A stretch of 21,465 nucleotides of DNA, from IMG/VR virus record IMGVR_UViG_3300012210_000087, positions 1 through 21,465 of that record. One strand, 5' to 3'. Below the pieces are notes generated by a model. That model saw nothing but the letters and a program-made list of their open reading frames with translations. It was not told the origin of the DNA and searched no databases. Below, piece after piece: positions 7,049-19,401 of this stretch; position 1 is the stretch's first letter, and each line of letters opens with the position of its first letter. The position numbers were made by a program, and so were the translations under genes. This stretch comes from a virus.

Positions 7049-7681
7049 CTACTCCGTCATGGCGTTGTCCGCAGCAAGAATCTCACTCCGGAGCACCCGG
7101 CGCACGGTCTTCTGCATCTCCGTGTTCAGCCCGGCCTGCGTCAGAGCCGTATCCAGCGCCCTATCCAGCAGCAGCAGCTGCTTCTCCTGCAGGTCCAGGC
7201 CCCGCTTGTCCAATCCGAGGCGCAGCGCGCGCTCGGCGTGCGTCCCAGCCAGGTCGGCCGCCTTGAGCATCGCGCCGACCTCGCCGCGCACGTGGATGTT
7301 GCCGAACGCGTCGTAATAGGTCAGCTCCTCCTTGTCGGCCAGCACGGCCTGCATCCGGCTCGCCAGCGCTCGCGAGATCGCCATGATCCACTGCAGCGTC
7401 TCGGCCGGGTTGCCGTACTGCGCGATCAGCTCCTCGTCCGTCAGGTCGAGCACGCTCTTCTTCGCGTCGATCACCGCCTGCCGGTGCGCCATCCGGTCCT
7501 GCGCCTTGGAGATCACCTGAGGCGCCTTGCCCCCGTGGAGGTGACAGACCTCTGATCCGGCTGCCGGAGCCTGTCCGCACGGCCCTCCGGCCTTATTGTG
7601 CCCTTTGCACTGATGTGTCGGGATCGGGCCCAGCAGATTCGCCATGACCGCGTCCATTGAGCGCCGCTCCTGCTCGTCCAT
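7049..7681 (-). CDS. HGGxxPQV zinc-motif protein (possible terminase small subunit-like)
   Basis: A 210-residue protein. Residues about 23-55 carry CKGHNKAGGPCGQ, then VCHLHGGKAPQV, a Cys/His motif ending in HGG-x-x-P found in many actinobacterial phage and prophage proteins, some annotated as terminase small subunits. The rest is helical and charged (KKSVLDLTDEELIAQYGNPAETLQW, then long Leu-rich helices), plausible for oligomerisation. The ATG at 7679-7681 was chosen because the frame further upstream runs into the repeat region; its ribosome binding site is poor, and the ATG at 7655-7657 is an alternative. It lies directly beside the iteron segment, so origin or DNA-end binding are both possible. 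Confidence 0.65.
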   Translation of the reverse strand: MDEQERRSMDAVMANLLGPIPTHQCKGHNKAGGPCGQAPAAGSEVCHLHGGKAPQVISKAQDRMAHRQAVIDAKKSVLDLTDEELIAQYGNPAETLQWIMAISRALASRMQAVLADKEELTYYDAFGNIHVRGEVGAMLKAADLAGTHAERALRLGLDKRGLDLQEKQLLLLDRALDTALTQAGLNTEMQKTVRRVLRSEILAADNAMTE

Positions 7682-7748
7682 GCGGTCATGATACGGCCCG
7701 ATGATCCCAAAGCCATAGGGTAAGTTGATCTTGGTACCTGACCTGTGA

Positions 7749-7920
7749 GGACGCACATCTCGCACTATCCATCTGACACCCACGAATCCTGCGTCCGCAT
7801 GCGGTCGCACACCCACCGACGCGGACGCACACCTCGCATGATCCGTCTATGCGGACGCACATCTCGCACTCCGCAACTGATTCATGCGGACGATGCGGAC
7901 CATACGGACGCACATTTACA
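7749..7920 (+). repeat. Iteron-like direct repeats, core GGACGCACATCTCGCA
   Basis: Four direct copies are visible: 7749-7764 (exact core), 7823-7838 (one change, ACCTCGCA), 7853-7868 (exact core) and 7906-7920 (degenerate, GGACGCACATTTACA). Copies two and three are 30 bp apart, start to start. A preceding GC is present in copies two and three. Shorter pieces of the same unit occur at 7886-7900 and 7939-7955, and inverted GCGTCCGC pieces at 7791-7798 and 8042-8049. Irregular spacing argues against a simple tandem array and for protein-binding sites. Confidence 0.8.
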
Positions 7921-7928
7921 GCCTCCCA

Positions 7929-8007
7929 CTTCCTCTCTGCGGACGCGCGGACGCAGGAGGACAGTCCGCCCTATACCTTCTCTGGTAGGGGGTAAATAGA
8001 GAGGAAG
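7929..8007. repeat. 10-bp inverted repeat around an A/T-richer stretch
   Basis: CTTCCTCTCT at 7929-7938 is perfectly repeated in inverse as AGAGAGGAAG at 7998-8007. Between and just after the arms lies the least G+C-rich DNA of the region (GGTAAATAGAGAGG onwards), a candidate for strand opening. The arms are 59 bp apart, long for a hairpin but suitable for a looped or cruciform protein target. Confidence 0.6.
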
Positions 8008-8055
8008 AGTAAAGGGACAACCGTGCGACCTCCGTCCGCATGCGTCCGCACGTGG

Positions 8056-8079
8056 AAAAGCCCGGACCGTAGTCCGGGC
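8056..8079 (-). terminator. Rho-independent terminator of the Prim-Pol/ATPase transcript
   Basis: On the leftward strand GCCCGGAC, a 4-nt loop and GTCCGGGC form a perfect 8-bp stem (8060-8079) followed directly by TTTT (8059-8056). It sits 15 bases past the stop of the ATPase gene. It would isolate that transcript from the iteron segment and the genes beyond it. Confidence 0.88.
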
Positions 8080-8094
8080 CTCTCATCCGGTCCC

Positions 8095-9501
8095 TCACTG
8101 CGGCGGCAGGATCCGGATCATCCGCTTCCGGTCGTGCCCCTCGCGGAACCGCTCGACCCGCCAGCCGATGGCCGCCAGGGCCTGGCTCGACCGCTCCAAC
8201 CGCTCGGACAGCATCCGGGGCGACCACTTGCGCCCGAACTCGTCCTGTAGCCCTCCGTGCATCACCAGGTGGTGCACCAGCTCCGTGGCCGTGCCCCGCC
8301 ATTCGGCGCGCACCCCCTCGCGCAGCGCGACCGCGACCGCGTCCCCGTCTGCGATGTCCTCCAGGGCCGCATACCGCCCCGAACGCCAGGCACCGATCGC
8401 ATTGGTCCGCCAGCGGCGGTCGATCAGCTGCACGATCTGCGAGAACCGGATCAGGCGGTCCTGCCCCACCGGCTGCGGCATGGACGCCATGTCGGCGAGG
8501 ATCGCGACGGTCTGGTCCAGCAGCCAGGCCAGCGCCTCGGGGTGCGCCAGCGCCCATACGGCTGCGACCTCGTCGTCCGACCGGTACGCCGTGATCCTCG
8601 CCAGCTTGTGCGCCGCCAGCCGGTCCGCCAGGTCTCCCTCGAGACCGCCCAGGGTGATCCCGTTCATCACGATCACGCTTTGAAAAGCCGCCACGTACAG
8701 GTCGCCGTCCGTATAGAGGGCTCTGTCCACCCATCCGTCGCCGCTAGCCGCCTTGCACAGCGCGTCCGACCACCAGCGCGCCACCGAGGACACGTTGTCC
8801 AGCGCCAGCACGTACCGGCCGCCCGCCAGCGCGGCCCAGGTCCGCCCGTCCCGCGGGACCGGCTGCATGGCGGGCGAGGCGTCGATCCAGTTCGTGGTGA
8901 TCCGGGTGGCCGCCGTCTTCGCACTTCCCGGAGGTCCGCTCATCACCTCGATCGGGTGCGTGATGCCGGGGAACAGGGACGCCACCCGGCACGCGACGTA
9001 CAGGGCCCAGTCGTCCACCGACCGGATGTTGATCAGGTCGCGGGCAGCCTCCATCCGGCCGTCCTCGGCGGGCAGCGGCAGCTCGGCCGTCAGCGCGGTC
9101 CTGGTGAACAGCACGGGCGGCCGGTCCACCACGCGCCACGCGCCGGGCCGGAGCTCCACGGCCTTGCCGTCCGCACGGCCCAGGTCCAGGAATATCGACC
9201 CCTGCCATGCGGCGATCCGCAGGTGCGGGGTGACCCTGCCCTTGCCCATGGCCGCGCCCTCGGCCAGGTTCAGCGCGGAGGAGAGCGCGTCGTTGTTCGC
9301 CACCCGGCCGGTCTGCGCGTACATGTCCACGGCCAACCGCTGCCGCATGCCGAAGGCTCCGCGCATCGGGACCATGACCGAGGGGGCGTCCAGCCGCACC
9401 GCGAACGGTCTCCCGTCCGTGGTGGCCGCCACGTAGTAGTCCTTCTGCAGGATCCCCATCAGCGTGTCCACGGCCGCCGGGGCTGTCGCCGTGGCTGTCA
9501 C
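8095..9501 (-). CDS. AAA+/SF3-like replication ATPase (helicase-type)
   Basis: A 468-residue P-loop ATPase. Walker A is GPPGSAKT (residues 189-196), Walker B is YVLALDN (230-236), a sensor-1 Asn ends VIVMN (276-280), and LADRL (291-295) could provide the arginine finger. The N-terminal ~170 residues are a separate domain with no motif I recognise; the C-terminal part (RKWSPRMLSERLERSSQAL) looks like a winged-helix DNA-binding region. Following a Prim-Pol gene, this arrangement matches split primase/helicase modules of actinobacterial mobile elements, so a replicative helicase or origin-opening role is likely. The GTG at 9499-9501 overlaps the stop of a 16-codon leader ORF as GTGA. Confidence 0.82.
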   Translation of the reverse strand: MTATATAPAAVDTLMGILQKDYYVAATTDGRPFAVRLDAPSVMVPMRGAFGMRQRLAVDMYAQTGRVANNDALSSALNLAEGAAMGKGRVTPHLRIAAWQGSIFLDLGRADGKAVELRPGAWRVVDRPPVLFTRTALTAELPLPAEDGRMEAARDLINIRSVDDWALYVACRVASLFPGITHPIEVMSGPPGSAKTAATRITTNWIDASPAMQPVPRDGRTWAALAGGRYVLALDNVSSVARWWSDALCKAASGDGWVDRALYTDGDLYVAAFQSVIVMNGITLGGLEGDLADRLAAHKLARITAYRSDDEVAAVWALAHPEALAWLLDQTVAILADMASMPQPVGQDRLIRFSQIVQLIDRRWRTNAIGAWRSGRYAALEDIADGDAVAVALREGVRAEWRGTATELVHHLVMHGGLQDEFGRKWSPRMLSERLERSSQALAAIGWRVERFREGHDRKRMIRILPPQ

Positions 9502-9676: not shown

Positions 9677-10597
9677 TCACCGCGTCCCCCTCTTGAGCCA
9701 CGCGTCGCGCAGCGCGTACTCGCGCGCCCGCTGTCCGTCGATGAACTTCCGGGCGCTCTCGCTCAGCACCAGAACCTCGCGCCACGGCATGCCGGACACG
9801 TCCCCGGCCATCCAGATCGCGCGCAGCTCGTCGAGCACACGGTCCGGCGGCAGCCTGCGGTGCAGCGAGCAGGCGGCGCGGTACAGCTCCCGGTTCCGGC
9901 TGCCGACCGGCGCGCCGCGCTCCTTCAGCTCGCCGATGTCGACGTCGTCGCCGCTGTACGTGCTGCCACCCGAGGAGGTCGCGGGACCTGCCGACGCGAC
10001 CCACTCCAGCAGCCACGGCGGAGCGTCCGGCGCCGAGCAGAAGCAGCCGCGCGACCACCGGTATGGGATCGGGACCGACTCCCCGGTGCGCGAGGAGACC
10101 ACCGCCATCGAGGGCGGGGCGACCACGAGGTTGCCGTCCCCGAGGATGTCGATGCCCGGCAGGATCCCGGGACGGCCCTGCACGCGCATGCCGCGCGGGG
10201 TGCGCAGCCACAGGTGCACGCCGCCGGACGGCGTCTCCGCGATGGGGGCGTCCCGGATGCCGAAGCCGTGCTCCGTCATGAAGCGGGTCAGCTGCCCGGG
10301 GCCGTCCTGCCCGTTCTTCACGTCCAGGTCGACCACGACCAGCCGGGACGGCGAGCCGCAGGCGACCCCGATGTTGGCCGCGCGGTCCTGCGACCACGAC
10401 CACTTGGCGGCGCGGCCGTCGATCGAGGCCCAGTGCACTCCGCCGTACTCGCCGAGCATCCGGTGCGGCTTCTTCCGGCCGCGGGCCAGCGCGAGCACCG
10501 CGTACCCCTGGCCCTGGTAGCGCAGCGCGGCGGAGCCCAGCCCGTACTGCTCGGTGATGGGATCCCCTGCGTCGAAATCCTGGTGGTGACAGTCCAT
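9677..10597 (-). CDS. Bifunctional primase/polymerase (Prim-Pol domain)
   Basis: A 306-residue Prim-Pol protein that would make primers and extend them at the origin. The archaeo-eukaryotic primase motifs are visible: the metal-binding DxD in LVVVDLDV (Asp90, Asp92), the SGGVHLW motif (Ser124 to His128) and GIDILGDGNLVVAPPS (about 148-163). The N-terminus (RYQGQGYAVLALARGRKKPH) is typical of the family start. Residues after about 200 are helical and may link to the partner ATPase. The ATG at 10595-10597 follows GTTCAGGGAGGA with good spacing. In many elements Prim-Pol is fused to its ATPase; here the ATPase is the next separate gene. Confidence 0.9.
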   Translation of the reverse strand: MDCHHQDFDAGDPITEQYGLGSAALRYQGQGYAVLALARGRKKPHRMLGEYGGVHWASIDGRAAKWSWSQDRAANIGVACGSPSRLVVVDLDVKNGQDGPGQLTRFMTEHGFGIRDAPIAETPSGGVHLWLRTPRGMRVQGRPGILPGIDILGDGNLVVAPPSMAVVSSRTGESVPIPYRWSRGCFCSAPDAPPWLLEWVASAGPATSSGGSTYSGDDVDIGELKERGAPVGSRNRELYRAACSLHRRLPPDRVLDELRAIWMAGDVSGMPWREVLVLSESARKFIDGQRAREYALRDAWLKRGTR

Positions 10598-10602
10598 CGC
10601 AA

Positions 10603-10664
10603 TCCTCCCTGAACGCTGGTGCTGATTCCAGTGTATCCTGATCTGAGGACAAGTTCAGGGAGGA
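10603..10664. promoter_or_regulatory. Divergent promoter region with 12-bp inverted repeat
   Basis: The only strand switch of the window. TCCTCCCTGAAC (10603-10614) and GTTCAGGGAGGA (10653-10664) are exact inverse copies 38 bp apart. Each arm holds the ribosome binding site of the gene it adjoins. Between them are overlapping -10 candidates: rightward TATCCT (10634-10639) and leftward TACACT (10630-10635 read in reverse). The CTGAAC in each arm lies 19 and 17 bp behind these and could be a weak -35. The two directions would therefore compete for RNA polymerase. Confidence 0.6.
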
Positions 10665-10672
10665 ACACGGAG

Positions 10673-11182
10673 ATGGCACATGTCACCATCCAGGATCACC
10701 ACGGCAGGACGCTAGCCGACTTCGAGGGAGAGCTTGCCGCCGAGGTGACCAGCGACGACGGCGAGCGGGCCCGGTGGATCGAGATGTCGCTGTACCACCG
10801 CGAGGACGGCGGGTGGGTGGTGCACCGCTGCTCGAGGTCGGTCCTCTACCACCGCATCGACACGTCGTGCCGCACCCCGAAGCAGGCGCGCCCCGGCGTG
10901 CGCAGCACCGCGGCCGACCTGCTCGGCGACGCGGAGCCGTGCGCGAAGTGCCGCCCGCCGGAGCCGACCGCGCTCGACCCCGACGCCGCGGTGCGCATCG
11001 AGATCCCGCGCGACAACGTGCACATGCTCGACACCGCGAAGCAGGTCGTGGACGACCTGACGATGGACCGCCGCACCGGCACCCCGTACTGGTCCCAGCC
11101 GGTCGTCGAGCTGCTCGCCGCCGCGGGCCTCAAGCACCCGGAGATCCTCGCGCTGATCCCGCAGTCCGCGGTCATCCGGTGA
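10673..11182 (+). CDS. Unknown protein, first rightward gene
   Basis: A 169-residue protein beginning MAHVTIQDHHGRTLADFEG. Residues about 35-60 (RWIEMSLYHREDGGWVVHRCSRSVLYH) have a strand-rich W-x-E-x-x-L-Y pattern reminiscent of small actinobacterial EXLDI-type proteins, a loose likeness only. A CAKC pair follows at about 92-95 with an earlier Cys (SCRTP), possibly binding zinc. The ATG at 10673-10675 has GGGAGGA upstream. Its stop overlaps the polymerase start as GTGA, so it is coupled to DNA polymerase and may have a replication role. No family is recognised firmly. Confidence 0.75.
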   Translation: MAHVTIQDHHGRTLADFEGELAAEVTSDDGERARWIEMSLYHREDGGWVVHRCSRSVLYHRIDTSCRTPKQARPGVRSTAADLLGDAEPCAKCRPPEPTALDPDAAVRIEIPRDNVHMLDTAKQVVDDLTMDRRTGTPYWSQPVVELLAAAGLKHPEILALIPQSAVIR

Positions 11183-12963
11183 CCGGCGTACTCGACGGCG
11201 TCAGCCTGCGCACGATCACCTCGATCGACGAGCTGGCCGAGTGCAAGCGGTGGGCCGGGGAGAGGCGCGAGGGTCCGCTGTGCTTCGACACGGAGTCGTC
11301 GGGCCTCAGCCCGTACCGGGACGAGTGCCGCCTGATCCAGATCGGCGACATGCACACCGGATGGGCCGCCCCGGCGAAGCTGTGGGGCGGCGGCATCCTG
11401 GAGATCCTGCGGGACTACCGCGGCGAACTCGGCGCGCACAACATGGGCTACGACTGGCGGGTGATCCACCGCCAGCTGGGTCTGAAGCTGAACTGGGCGA
11501 AGATCCACGACACGCTGTTCGTGACCCACCTGCACGACTCGATCGGCGCGCACGGCCTGAAGCCGCGTGCCGCGCAGGACATCGACCCGCGGGCGATGAT
11601 CGGCGAGCGTGTCCTGCAGGAGGCGATGTCGGCCAACCACTGGACGTGGGCCACCGTGCCGCTCGACTATCCGGGCTACACCGCGTACGCCGCGCTGGAC
11701 CCGGTGCTCACGGCGCACCTGTGGCACAAGCACGGGCCGGAGACCATGTCCAAGTTCCGCCAGGCGTACGACTTGGAGAGGTCCACCGCCCGGATCGCCG
11801 CGAGCATGATGGACGCCGGGATGATGCTCGACGTGCCGTACATCGAGCGGCAGATCGAGCGGCTGGAGGCGTGGGAGCGCGAGGCGACCACCTGGCTCCA
11901 CAAGGAGTTCGGCATCAGCTCGGTCAACTCGGCCGCGCAGATCGAACGGGCGCTGAACTCCGTCGGCATCCCGACGTCCGTGTGGACGAAGGGCGGCCAG
12001 GCGTCGACCGACAAGGACACGCTGAAGCTGTATTCGAACACGTATCCGGAGCACCGCAAGCTGATCGAGACCATCGCCTACGCACGCAAGACCGGCAAGA
12101 TCGTCAACACGCACCTGCGCAAGTTCCTCGAGCTGCGCGACGAGGACGACGTCATCCACGCCTCGATCAACACCTGCCAGGCGCGCACCTCCCGGCAGTC
12201 CGTCACCGACCCGCCGATGCAGACCTTCGACCGGGACGTGCCGATGATCCGCGGGTCCTACCGGCCGCGGCCGGGCAACGCGTTCGTGACGGTAGACGCG
12301 GACCAGATCGAGGCGCGCATCACCGCGCACTTCTCGAACGACCGGGGCATGATCGAGATGTTCCGCCAGGCCGACGAGAGCGGCATCGACTTCTTCCGGC
12401 TGATGGCCGGTCGGATCTACCAGACCGACCCGGAGCAGATCCCGAAGTCCGACGTGCGCCGCCAGCTGACCAAGAACTCCACCTACGCGAGGATCTACGG
12501 GTCGGGCCTGGACCGCATGGCGCTGACGGCCGGTGTGCCGGTCGAGCAGGCGTCGCCGGTGTACAACGCGTTCGGCCAGCTCTATCCGGGCCCGGACCGG
12601 CTGATGCAGCAGATCATCCAGCGGTGCAAGGCGGAGGTGCGCGCCGGACGGCGCGGCTTCGTGACCACGCCGACGGGCCGGGTGCTCTACACCGACCGGG
12701 GCAGGGAGTACGCGGGCCTGAACTACAAGGTCCAGGGCCATTCGGCCGAGATCCTGAAGACGGGCGTGATCGAGCTGGACGCGGCCGGGCTCACCCCGTA
12801 CCTGCGCCTCACGATCCACGACGAGGTGATGGGCGAGTTCCCGAAGGAGATCGCCAAGGACGCCCTGGCCACGATGACCAGGATCCTGACCGACCGCGAG
12901 ACGTACCAGGTGCCGATCACCTGGGACGGGAAGATCCTGGAAGAAAGGTGGATCAAGTCATGA
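11179..12963 (+). CDS. Family A DNA polymerase with 3'-5' exonuclease
   Basis: A 594-residue PolA-type replicative polymerase without a 5' nuclease domain, the usual phage form. Exonuclease residues are intact: Asp37 and Glu39 (CFDTES), Asn88 and Asp92 (AHNMGYD), Tyr170 and Asp174 (YAALD). Polymerase motif A is VTVDADQIEARI (catalytic Asp373), motif B RRQLTKNSTYARIYG (Arg428, Lys432, Tyr436) and motif C LTIHDEV (His547, Asp548, Glu549). Tyr rather than Phe at the O-helix position (Tyr436) resembles T7 polymerase. The GTG at 11179-11181 overlaps the upstream stop, and the stop overlaps the next ATG. Longer frames from 10774 are shadow. Confidence 0.95.
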   Translation: MTGVLDGVSLRTITSIDELAECKRWAGERREGPLCFDTESSGLSPYRDECRLIQIGDMHTGWAAPAKLWGGGILEILRDYRGELGAHNMGYDWRVIHRQLGLKLNWAKIHDTLFVTHLHDSIGAHGLKPRAAQDIDPRAMIGERVLQEAMSANHWTWATVPLDYPGYTAYAALDPVLTAHLWHKHGPETMSKFRQAYDLERSTARIAASMMDAGMMLDVPYIERQIERLEAWEREATTWLHKEFGISSVNSAAQIERALNSVGIPTSVWTKGGQASTDKDTLKLYSNTYPEHRKLIETIAYARKTGKIVNTHLRKFLELRDEDDVIHASINTCQARTSRQSVTDPPMQTFDRDVPMIRGSYRPRPGNAFVTVDADQIEARITAHFSNDRGMIEMFRQADESGIDFFRLMAGRIYQTDPEQIPKSDVRRQLTKNSTYARIYGSGLDRMALTAGVPVEQASPVYNAFGQLYPGPDRLMQQIIQRCKAEVRAGRRGFVTTPTGRVLYTDRGREYAGLNYKVQGHSAEILKTGVIELDAAGLTPYLRLTIHDEVMGEFPKEIAKDALATMTRILTDRETYQVPITWDGKILEERWIKS

Positions 12964-18357: not shown

Positions 18358-19401
18358 ATGGGTCAGTACGACTTCAACTCGCTGTACGGCCAGGCCGACA
18401 GCTCGATCTTCGTCTACGACACCAATGAGGTCGACGCCGTGGTCGAGTCGAGCACGTGGGGCCGGACCAAGGACGGCGCCAAGGGACAGTGGGACGTCCG
18501 GTTCCGCGTGACGACCGGTCCCAACGCCGGACGCGCGCAGATCCGGTTCCCGATGACGATCACCACGGACGGCCCGTCGGCGGCCCAGTCGCTCGGGATC
18601 ATGTTCCGGCACCTGGAGGCCATGGGGATCCCGGCCGACTGGGTCAAGAGCAACCCTCCGGAAGAGCAGATCGCACAGGCGATGGTCGGCAAGCCGGTGC
18701 TGCTGAAGATCGTGCTCGACGAGTACGAGGGCGTGCAGCGCAACAAGGTGCGCGACGTGCGCCCGCCGCGCCCCGGCGCCCCGACGACCTGGCCGACCTA
18801 CCAGCCGCAGCAGCCCGCCGCGATGCCCGGCTATGGGCAGCAGCCCGGCTACGGGCAGTCGCCGTTTCAGCAGCCGCAGTACGCGCAGCCTCAGTACGCG
18901 CAGCCGCAGCAGGGCTACGCCCCGCAGCCGCAGCAGGACTACAGCCAGCCGAGCTACGCGCCGCCGCAGCAGGATCCGTGGCAGCAGCCCCAGCCGGGCT
19001 ACGGAGGCCCGCAGCAGCCCGCCGCAGCGCCCGCGCCCGTTGACCCGTGGCAGACGCCAGCGCCTGCAGCAGCCCCCAACGGTGCCCAGCCCGGCGGCAA
19101 CGCGGCTGTCCCGCCGTGGGCGACTCCGCAGCAGGCACCGCAGGCGCCCGCCGCGCAGCCGTGGAACCCGATGCAGCAGCCGCAGCAGCCCGCCCCGGGC
19201 TACGGCGCGGCCCCGGCGCCCTACCAGCCGCAGCAGCAGGCACCGCAGCAGCCGCAGCAGGGCCAGCCCCAGCCGCAGCAGCCCGCGGCGCCCGCGCCTG
19301 CGCCCGCCCCCGGCAACGCGCCGTGGAACGGCCAGGGCGCTCCGGCGCAGCCCGAGCAGGCCGGACCGCAGGGCGCGCCGCCGCCGCCCTGGGCCCAGTA
19401 G
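18358..19401 (+). CDS. SSB-like (DUF669-type) protein with long Pro/Gln tail
   Basis: A 347-residue protein. Residues 1-140 look like an OB-fold single-strand DNA-binding domain of the phage DUF669/SSB-like type: VDAVVESSTWGRTKDG, QWDVRFRVTTGPNAGR, a GIMFRHLEAMGI helix and VGKPVLLKIVLDEYEG. Residues about 141-347 are low-complexity Pro/Gln/Ala/Gly/Tyr with GYGQQPGYGQ and PQYAQPQYAQ repeats. Canonical SSBs end in an acidic tip; this one ends PPPPWAQ. The tail resembles disordered, condensate-prone regions. The ATG at 18358 follows GGGAAGAAGGA. Role: protecting single strands for polymerase and Sak4-like ATPase. Confidence 0.75.
   Translation: MGQYDFNSLYGQADSSIFVYDTNEVDAVVESSTWGRTKDGAKGQWDVRFRVTTGPNAGRAQIRFPMTITTDGPSAAQSLGIMFRHLEAMGIPADWVKSNPPEEQIAQAMVGKPVLLKIVLDEYEGVQRNKVRDVRPPRPGAPTTWPTYQPQQPAAMPGYGQQPGYGQSPFQQPQYAQPQYAQPQQGYAPQPQQDYSQPSYAPPQQDPWQQPQPGYGGPQQPAAAPAPVDPWQTPAPAAAPNGAQPGGNAAVPPWATPQQAPQAPAAQPWNPMQQPQQPAPGYGAAPAPYQPQQQAPQQPQQGQPQPQQPAAPAPAPAPGNAPWNGQGAPAQPEQAGPQGAPPPPWAQ

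Follow-up and report, generated by a model that had tools for sequence, protein, structure and literature searches.

A repeat array and a large stem-loop beside the Prim-Pol and ATPase genes of an uncultured soil phage: a probable replication origin

The 21,465-bp stretch of DNA analysed here, referred to as the window, is identical to the reverse strand of G001, a 71,862-bp contig of an uncultured soil phage, from position 46147 to 24683. End repeats of 123 bp (the length found in G001), 127 bp and 99 bp are present in three genomes of the group; since these repeats look like assembler overlaps, the contigs are probably circular assemblies. The locus is framed by genes on the minus strand, which encode a Prim-Pol (9677-10597; PF09250, E 5e-27), an ATPase (8095-9501) and a 210-aa protein with an HGGxxP zinc motif (7049-7681), which belongs to phrog_3678, a family of unknown function, and shows a weak match to HGGxSTG that is below the cut-off. 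The most likely start of the HGGxxP gene is 7681, so that the true gap between this gene and the ATPase stop at 8095 extends from 7682 to 8094, and the gene calls confirm that it is free of genes, as had been noticed from the letters. The Prim-Pol and a family-A DNA polymerase, both encoded by the phage, are organized in divergent operons (9677-12963).

The ATPase, identified by alignment, is a candidate initiator and replicative helicase. For its assignment to SF3 there is a Walker A motif, GPPGSAKT, recognised by eye, with no Pfam match in any of the five homologues, no NCBIfam family and no PHROG match of significance. Among annotated proteins, the closest relative is the primase-helicase gp37 of Microbacterium phage Zeta1847, whose helicase half is 31% identical over 79% of the ATPase, and cellular relatives were not found with the patterns used. 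The DnaB family gave no match in the four phage genomes searched, and the ATPase is thus the only recognised helicase candidate besides an SNF2-type helicase. The C-terminal part of the ATPase (residues 376-468; 8098-8376, minus strand) is predicted to form a winged-helix domain (AF2 pLDDT 89.5), which is a candidate iteron binder. The matches of this domain in BFVD are phage helicases and primases (TM 0.70-0.79), and profile and fold searches against the PDB yielded nothing significant. The structure of the whole ATPase was dropped as evidence because the full-length model is too poor (pLDDT 47).

The gap is densely filled with short repeats. In an unsupervised test, it contained 91 repeated 8-mer pairs versus a mean of 3.6 in shuffled sequences, and none of 1000 shuffles reached this number. 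The motif TGCGGACGCA has ten matches in the window when up to one mismatch is allowed, all of which are located on both strands within the 305 bp between 7746 and 8050, while the best 305-bp cluster in dinucleotide shuffles of the window comprised one to two copies. In the whole G001 genome (71.9 kb), 10 of the 15 copies lie in the same gap, so that the motif search over the genome proposed in the sequence-only reading found a core that is not scattered. The window is otherwise devoid of the motif; iteron origins are likewise marked by several copies of a short repeat that are grouped in non-coding DNA at a single place. The densest short-repeat block of G001 is found elsewhere, in the gene for an unknown protein with a P/Q-rich tail and a weak match to phrog_2300 (18358-19401, plus strand).

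The four copies of the 16-nt core GGACGCACATCTCGCA described from the sequence were all recovered, and reading of the sequence together with the motif search placed them in longer composite units on the plus strand. The units at 7746-7764 and 7850-7868 (TGCGGACGCACATCTCGCA) contain exact cores (7749-7764 and 7853-7868), the unit at 7820-7838 carries one change in its core (7823-7838), and the degenerate unit at 7903-7921, which includes the iteron TACGGACGCA, carries five (7906-7921). The reverse complement of the unit at 7850-7868 provides the 15-mer TGCGAGATGTGCGTC. Additional near-copies of TGCGGACGCA in both orientations were identified by the motif search: an exact copy in reverse orientation (7790-7799, minus strand) forms a near-palindrome with the adjacent TGCGGTCGCA (7800-7809, plus strand), and further copies occupy the arms of a stem-loop, namely TGCGGACGGA (8031-8040) and an exact TGCGGACGCA (8041-8050) on the minus strand and, on the opposite arm, TGCGGACGCG (7938-7947) and CGCGGACGCA (7946-7955) on the plus strand. 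The claim that this is the least G+C-rich DNA of the region is correct at the 500-bp scale, at which the lowest block of the window is 7501-8000 (61%); however, at the 100-bp scale the gap ranks only third lowest in the whole G001 genome.

A 10-bp inverted repeat had also been reported and is indeed present, but its arms (7943-7962 and 8034-8053) are 20 nt long and 85% complementary, and they are part of a large imperfect stem-loop of about 113 nt (7938-8050, minus strand). The predicted DNA fold has an energy of -30 kcal/mol (z -4.7), which was not reached by any of 200 shuffles, and the best fold of the gap ranks fifth among 3588 windows of G001 after correction for GC content. The outer arms of the stem-loop consist of the facing iterons, pairing continues inside them, and the loop side is T/C-rich on the minus strand. 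A strand-asymmetric, A/T-richer stretch within the stem-loop (7968-8022; 51% A+T, 64% purine on the plus strand) is a candidate region for melting and priming. The large stem-loop, along with two elements read from the sequence at the borders of the gap, was overlooked in the first description. The first is a terminator-like hairpin (GCCCGGACTACGGTCCGGGC followed by TTTT; 8056-8079, minus strand) 3' of the ATPase gene; the terminator scanner requires five T and did not count this GC hairpin with four. The second is a putative -10 element, TATCAT (7688-7693, minus strand), positioned 6 nt before the ATG of the HGGxxP gene at 7681, which suggests a leaderless-looking promoter and a leaderless HGGxxP transcript. 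It is part of the promoter-like motif GATCNTNNGGNCGTATNNTG (7679-7712, minus strand), which is unique and syntenic in three genomes, with a similar motif in the other two, and lies at the same place in L007 to L010. The promoter scan found no sigma-70 two-box match to the putative promoter. Rfam gave no match for the stretch. In the direction of minus-strand transcription, the order is thus Prim-Pol, ATPase, terminator-like hairpin, stem-loop, iterons down to 7746, promoter-like element and HGGxxP gene.

The ATPase is also encoded, with 74-81% identity, by four further phages in IMG/VR, and a search for further viral relatives via the Prim-Pol and the HGGxxP protein revealed no new phages. All five phages possess a repeat array in the syntenic gap before the HGGxxP gene, each beyond all 1000 shuffles, and in all of them the repeats are found directly downstream of the helicase gene, separated from it in three phages by a single small antisense gene. 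The cores differ, with GGTGACG in L007, GCGTCAGC in L008, GGGTGACGCA in L009 and GTGCGTCAG, which lies in a 30-bp composite unit, in L010; TGCGTC is common to most. The type of iteron does not track the similarity of the ATPases, as L007 has the closest ATPase and a core unlike that of the window. Conservation of the core among relatives was found as the sequence-only reading had proposed to check: G001 and G005 have identical copies of the composite TGCGAGATGTGCGTC at the same site, and its relaxed form YGCGAGANNTGCGTC is confined to the gap in these two genomes. Matches to the composite repeats in IMG/VR outside the group were judged to be chance, as genes related to those for the ATPase, the Prim-Pol or the HGGxxP protein were absent from the fetched stretches.

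An imperfect stem-loop is also present in the syntenic gap of all four relatives, with a largely different sequence, so that what is conserved of the stem-loop 3' of the Prim-Pol and helicase genes is its form and not its sequence. Compared with z -4.7 in the window, it is strong in L007 (z -8.2, rank 1 in its own genome) and in L009 (z -9.6, second-ranked place of its own genome, the first being the repeat array of this gap). The values for L008 (z -3.7) and L010 (z -2.5) refer to intervals chosen by eye after inspection of the sequence, the wider intervals of first choice giving -0.6 and -1.6, respectively. In G005 the gap has a weak fold, at rank 130 in the genome. The small antisense genes between the ATPase and the repeats (L008:7529-7882, L009:7451-7804 and L010:7564-7953, minus strand, opposite to the ATPase) encode free-standing winged-helix proteins of 117-130 aa, which are homologous to the C-terminal domain of the ATPase (BLASTP E 8e-7 and 2e-6, tblastn E 2e-5). 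These homologues occur exclusively at this position next to the repeats of the three relatives; G001 and G002 lack the free copy, since the sole matches in them are the C-termini of the ATPases themselves.

From the repeats, the stem-loop, the synteny and the predicted winged-helix domain, we infer binding, melting, priming and origin activity at this site. The gap beside the Prim-Pol/ATPase module is likely to be the replication origin of the phage, at which the ATPase would initiate replication via the iterons and the stem-loop. A candidate origin at this position had already been proposed, and it is the best-supported reading, given the syntenic repeat clusters in five of five phages and a core that is not found genome-wide. 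Among the three proteins suggested as binders, the ATPase, the Prim-Pol and the HGGxxP protein, the ATPase is the best placed, since it has a predicted winged-helix end and free copies of this domain are encoded beside the repeats in three relatives. The ATPase could thus be a self-loading hexameric helicase-initiator, which would bind the iterons by its C-terminal winged-helix domain, assemble on the two facing iteron sets and melt or extrude the centre of the large stem-loop, which is T/C-rich. Priming at this centre might then be carried out by the Prim-Pol, whose gene lies just upstream, and the primer might be extended by the phage DNA polymerase I. The terminator-like hairpin 3' of the ATPase gene may keep the transcription of the upstream operon out of the site. 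A turn of the GC skew at the site, which had been named as a further check, is absent from all four genomes; the minimum of the cumulative skew is about 17-20 kb away in three of them (G001, G002 and G005) and about 4 kb away in G003. As gene direction confounds GC skew, this result fails to support the origin and does not refute it.

The main rival, albeit an unlikely one, is that the repeats serve as an array of operators, bound by a phage regulator of the leaderless-looking HGGxxP promoter, and that the stem-loop is incidental to operators facing each other. The array does lie directly upstream of the conserved promoter-like motif, and such a regulator could be the free-standing winged-helix protein that three relatives encode. 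However, the window phage lacks this protein and the binder-like domain belongs to the ATPase, the composite motif is found at one place only, unlike in multi-promoter regulons, and in three phages pairing continues inside the iteron arms with a different sequence. Packaging (pac) sites are often located near small-terminase genes, and the HGGxxP gene adjoins the gap; a pac site with the HGGxxP protein as small terminase is nonetheless highly improbable, considering that the large terminase is encoded at G001:58114-59835, about 20 kb off. Recombination (attP) sites and plasmid-type partition sites can both consist of direct and inverted repeats, which would fit the gap, but either is equally far-fetched, as Phage_integrase, Resolvase, ParA-type (CbiA) and ParB gave no match in four genomes in which the controls were positive.

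The proposed origin resembles several known systems. Plasmid pRN1 of Sulfolobus needs a stem-loop of about 100 nt downstream of its Prim-Pol/SF3/winged-helix gene, which follows a terminator and is conserved in form, not in sequence, and the authors of that study proposed a stem-loop for phage BIP-1 as well (PMC4234260). The phage locus likewise combines a Prim-Pol, a helicase and a winged-helix domain with a terminator-like hairpin and then a stem-loop of about this size 3' of the gene, again kept in form and not in sequence. In contrast to pRN1, in which these activities reside in one chain, the Prim-Pol and the ATPase are separate genes, the ATPase cannot be assigned to SF3 by profile, and the stem arms contain iterons and are followed by an iteron array, whereas pRN1 is without iterons. 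In SaPIs the origin consists of iterons that immediately follow rep, and the related Cch2 of SCCmec binds its own repeats by its C-terminal domain (PMC7581432). The position of the array, immediately 3' of the helicase gene, agrees with this arrangement; however, SaPI Rep belongs to DUF927 or Primase_Cterm/D5, while none of the five ATPase homologues has a Pfam match, and the phage is full-size, encodes its own PolA and has longer, GC-rich repeats and a large stem-loop. Since the site departs from each family in one defining feature or more, it is a variant that belongs to neither; by analogy, it may combine the pRN1 and SaPI designs and work like both, the Prim-Pol and the helicase being separate proteins.

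The alpha protein of satellite phage P4 is an initiator-helicase whose winged helix binds the origin repeats (PMC4234260). The ATPase would be comparable as a candidate for such binding; its primase partner is a separate Prim-Pol, whereas P4 alpha itself contains a Toprim primase. Zeta1847 gp37 shares the same C-terminal domain (TM 0.77) with the ATPase, but its helicase is fused to a Toprim primase. Zeta1847, the nearest isolated relative, showed no comparable gap and array beside the primase-helicase gene; used to test whether the layout extends to more distant phages, it offered no clear counterpart.

Prim-Pol replicons with stem-loop origins and initiator helicases with iteron origins have been described separately, and the two designs would be linked in this one phage group. 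With five phages that have related ATPases and largely different iterons, co-evolution of initiator and origin becomes directly testable. It is tempting to speculate that, at an origin formed by an iteron-armed stem-loop, the free DNA-binding domain of the initiator in some members keeps re-initiation in check by competing for the iterons, an extension of the origin reading that we regard as tentative. Outside the window, G001 also encodes a DNA topoisomerase-like protein (G001:22958-23935, minus strand; phrog_6247, E 2e-85).
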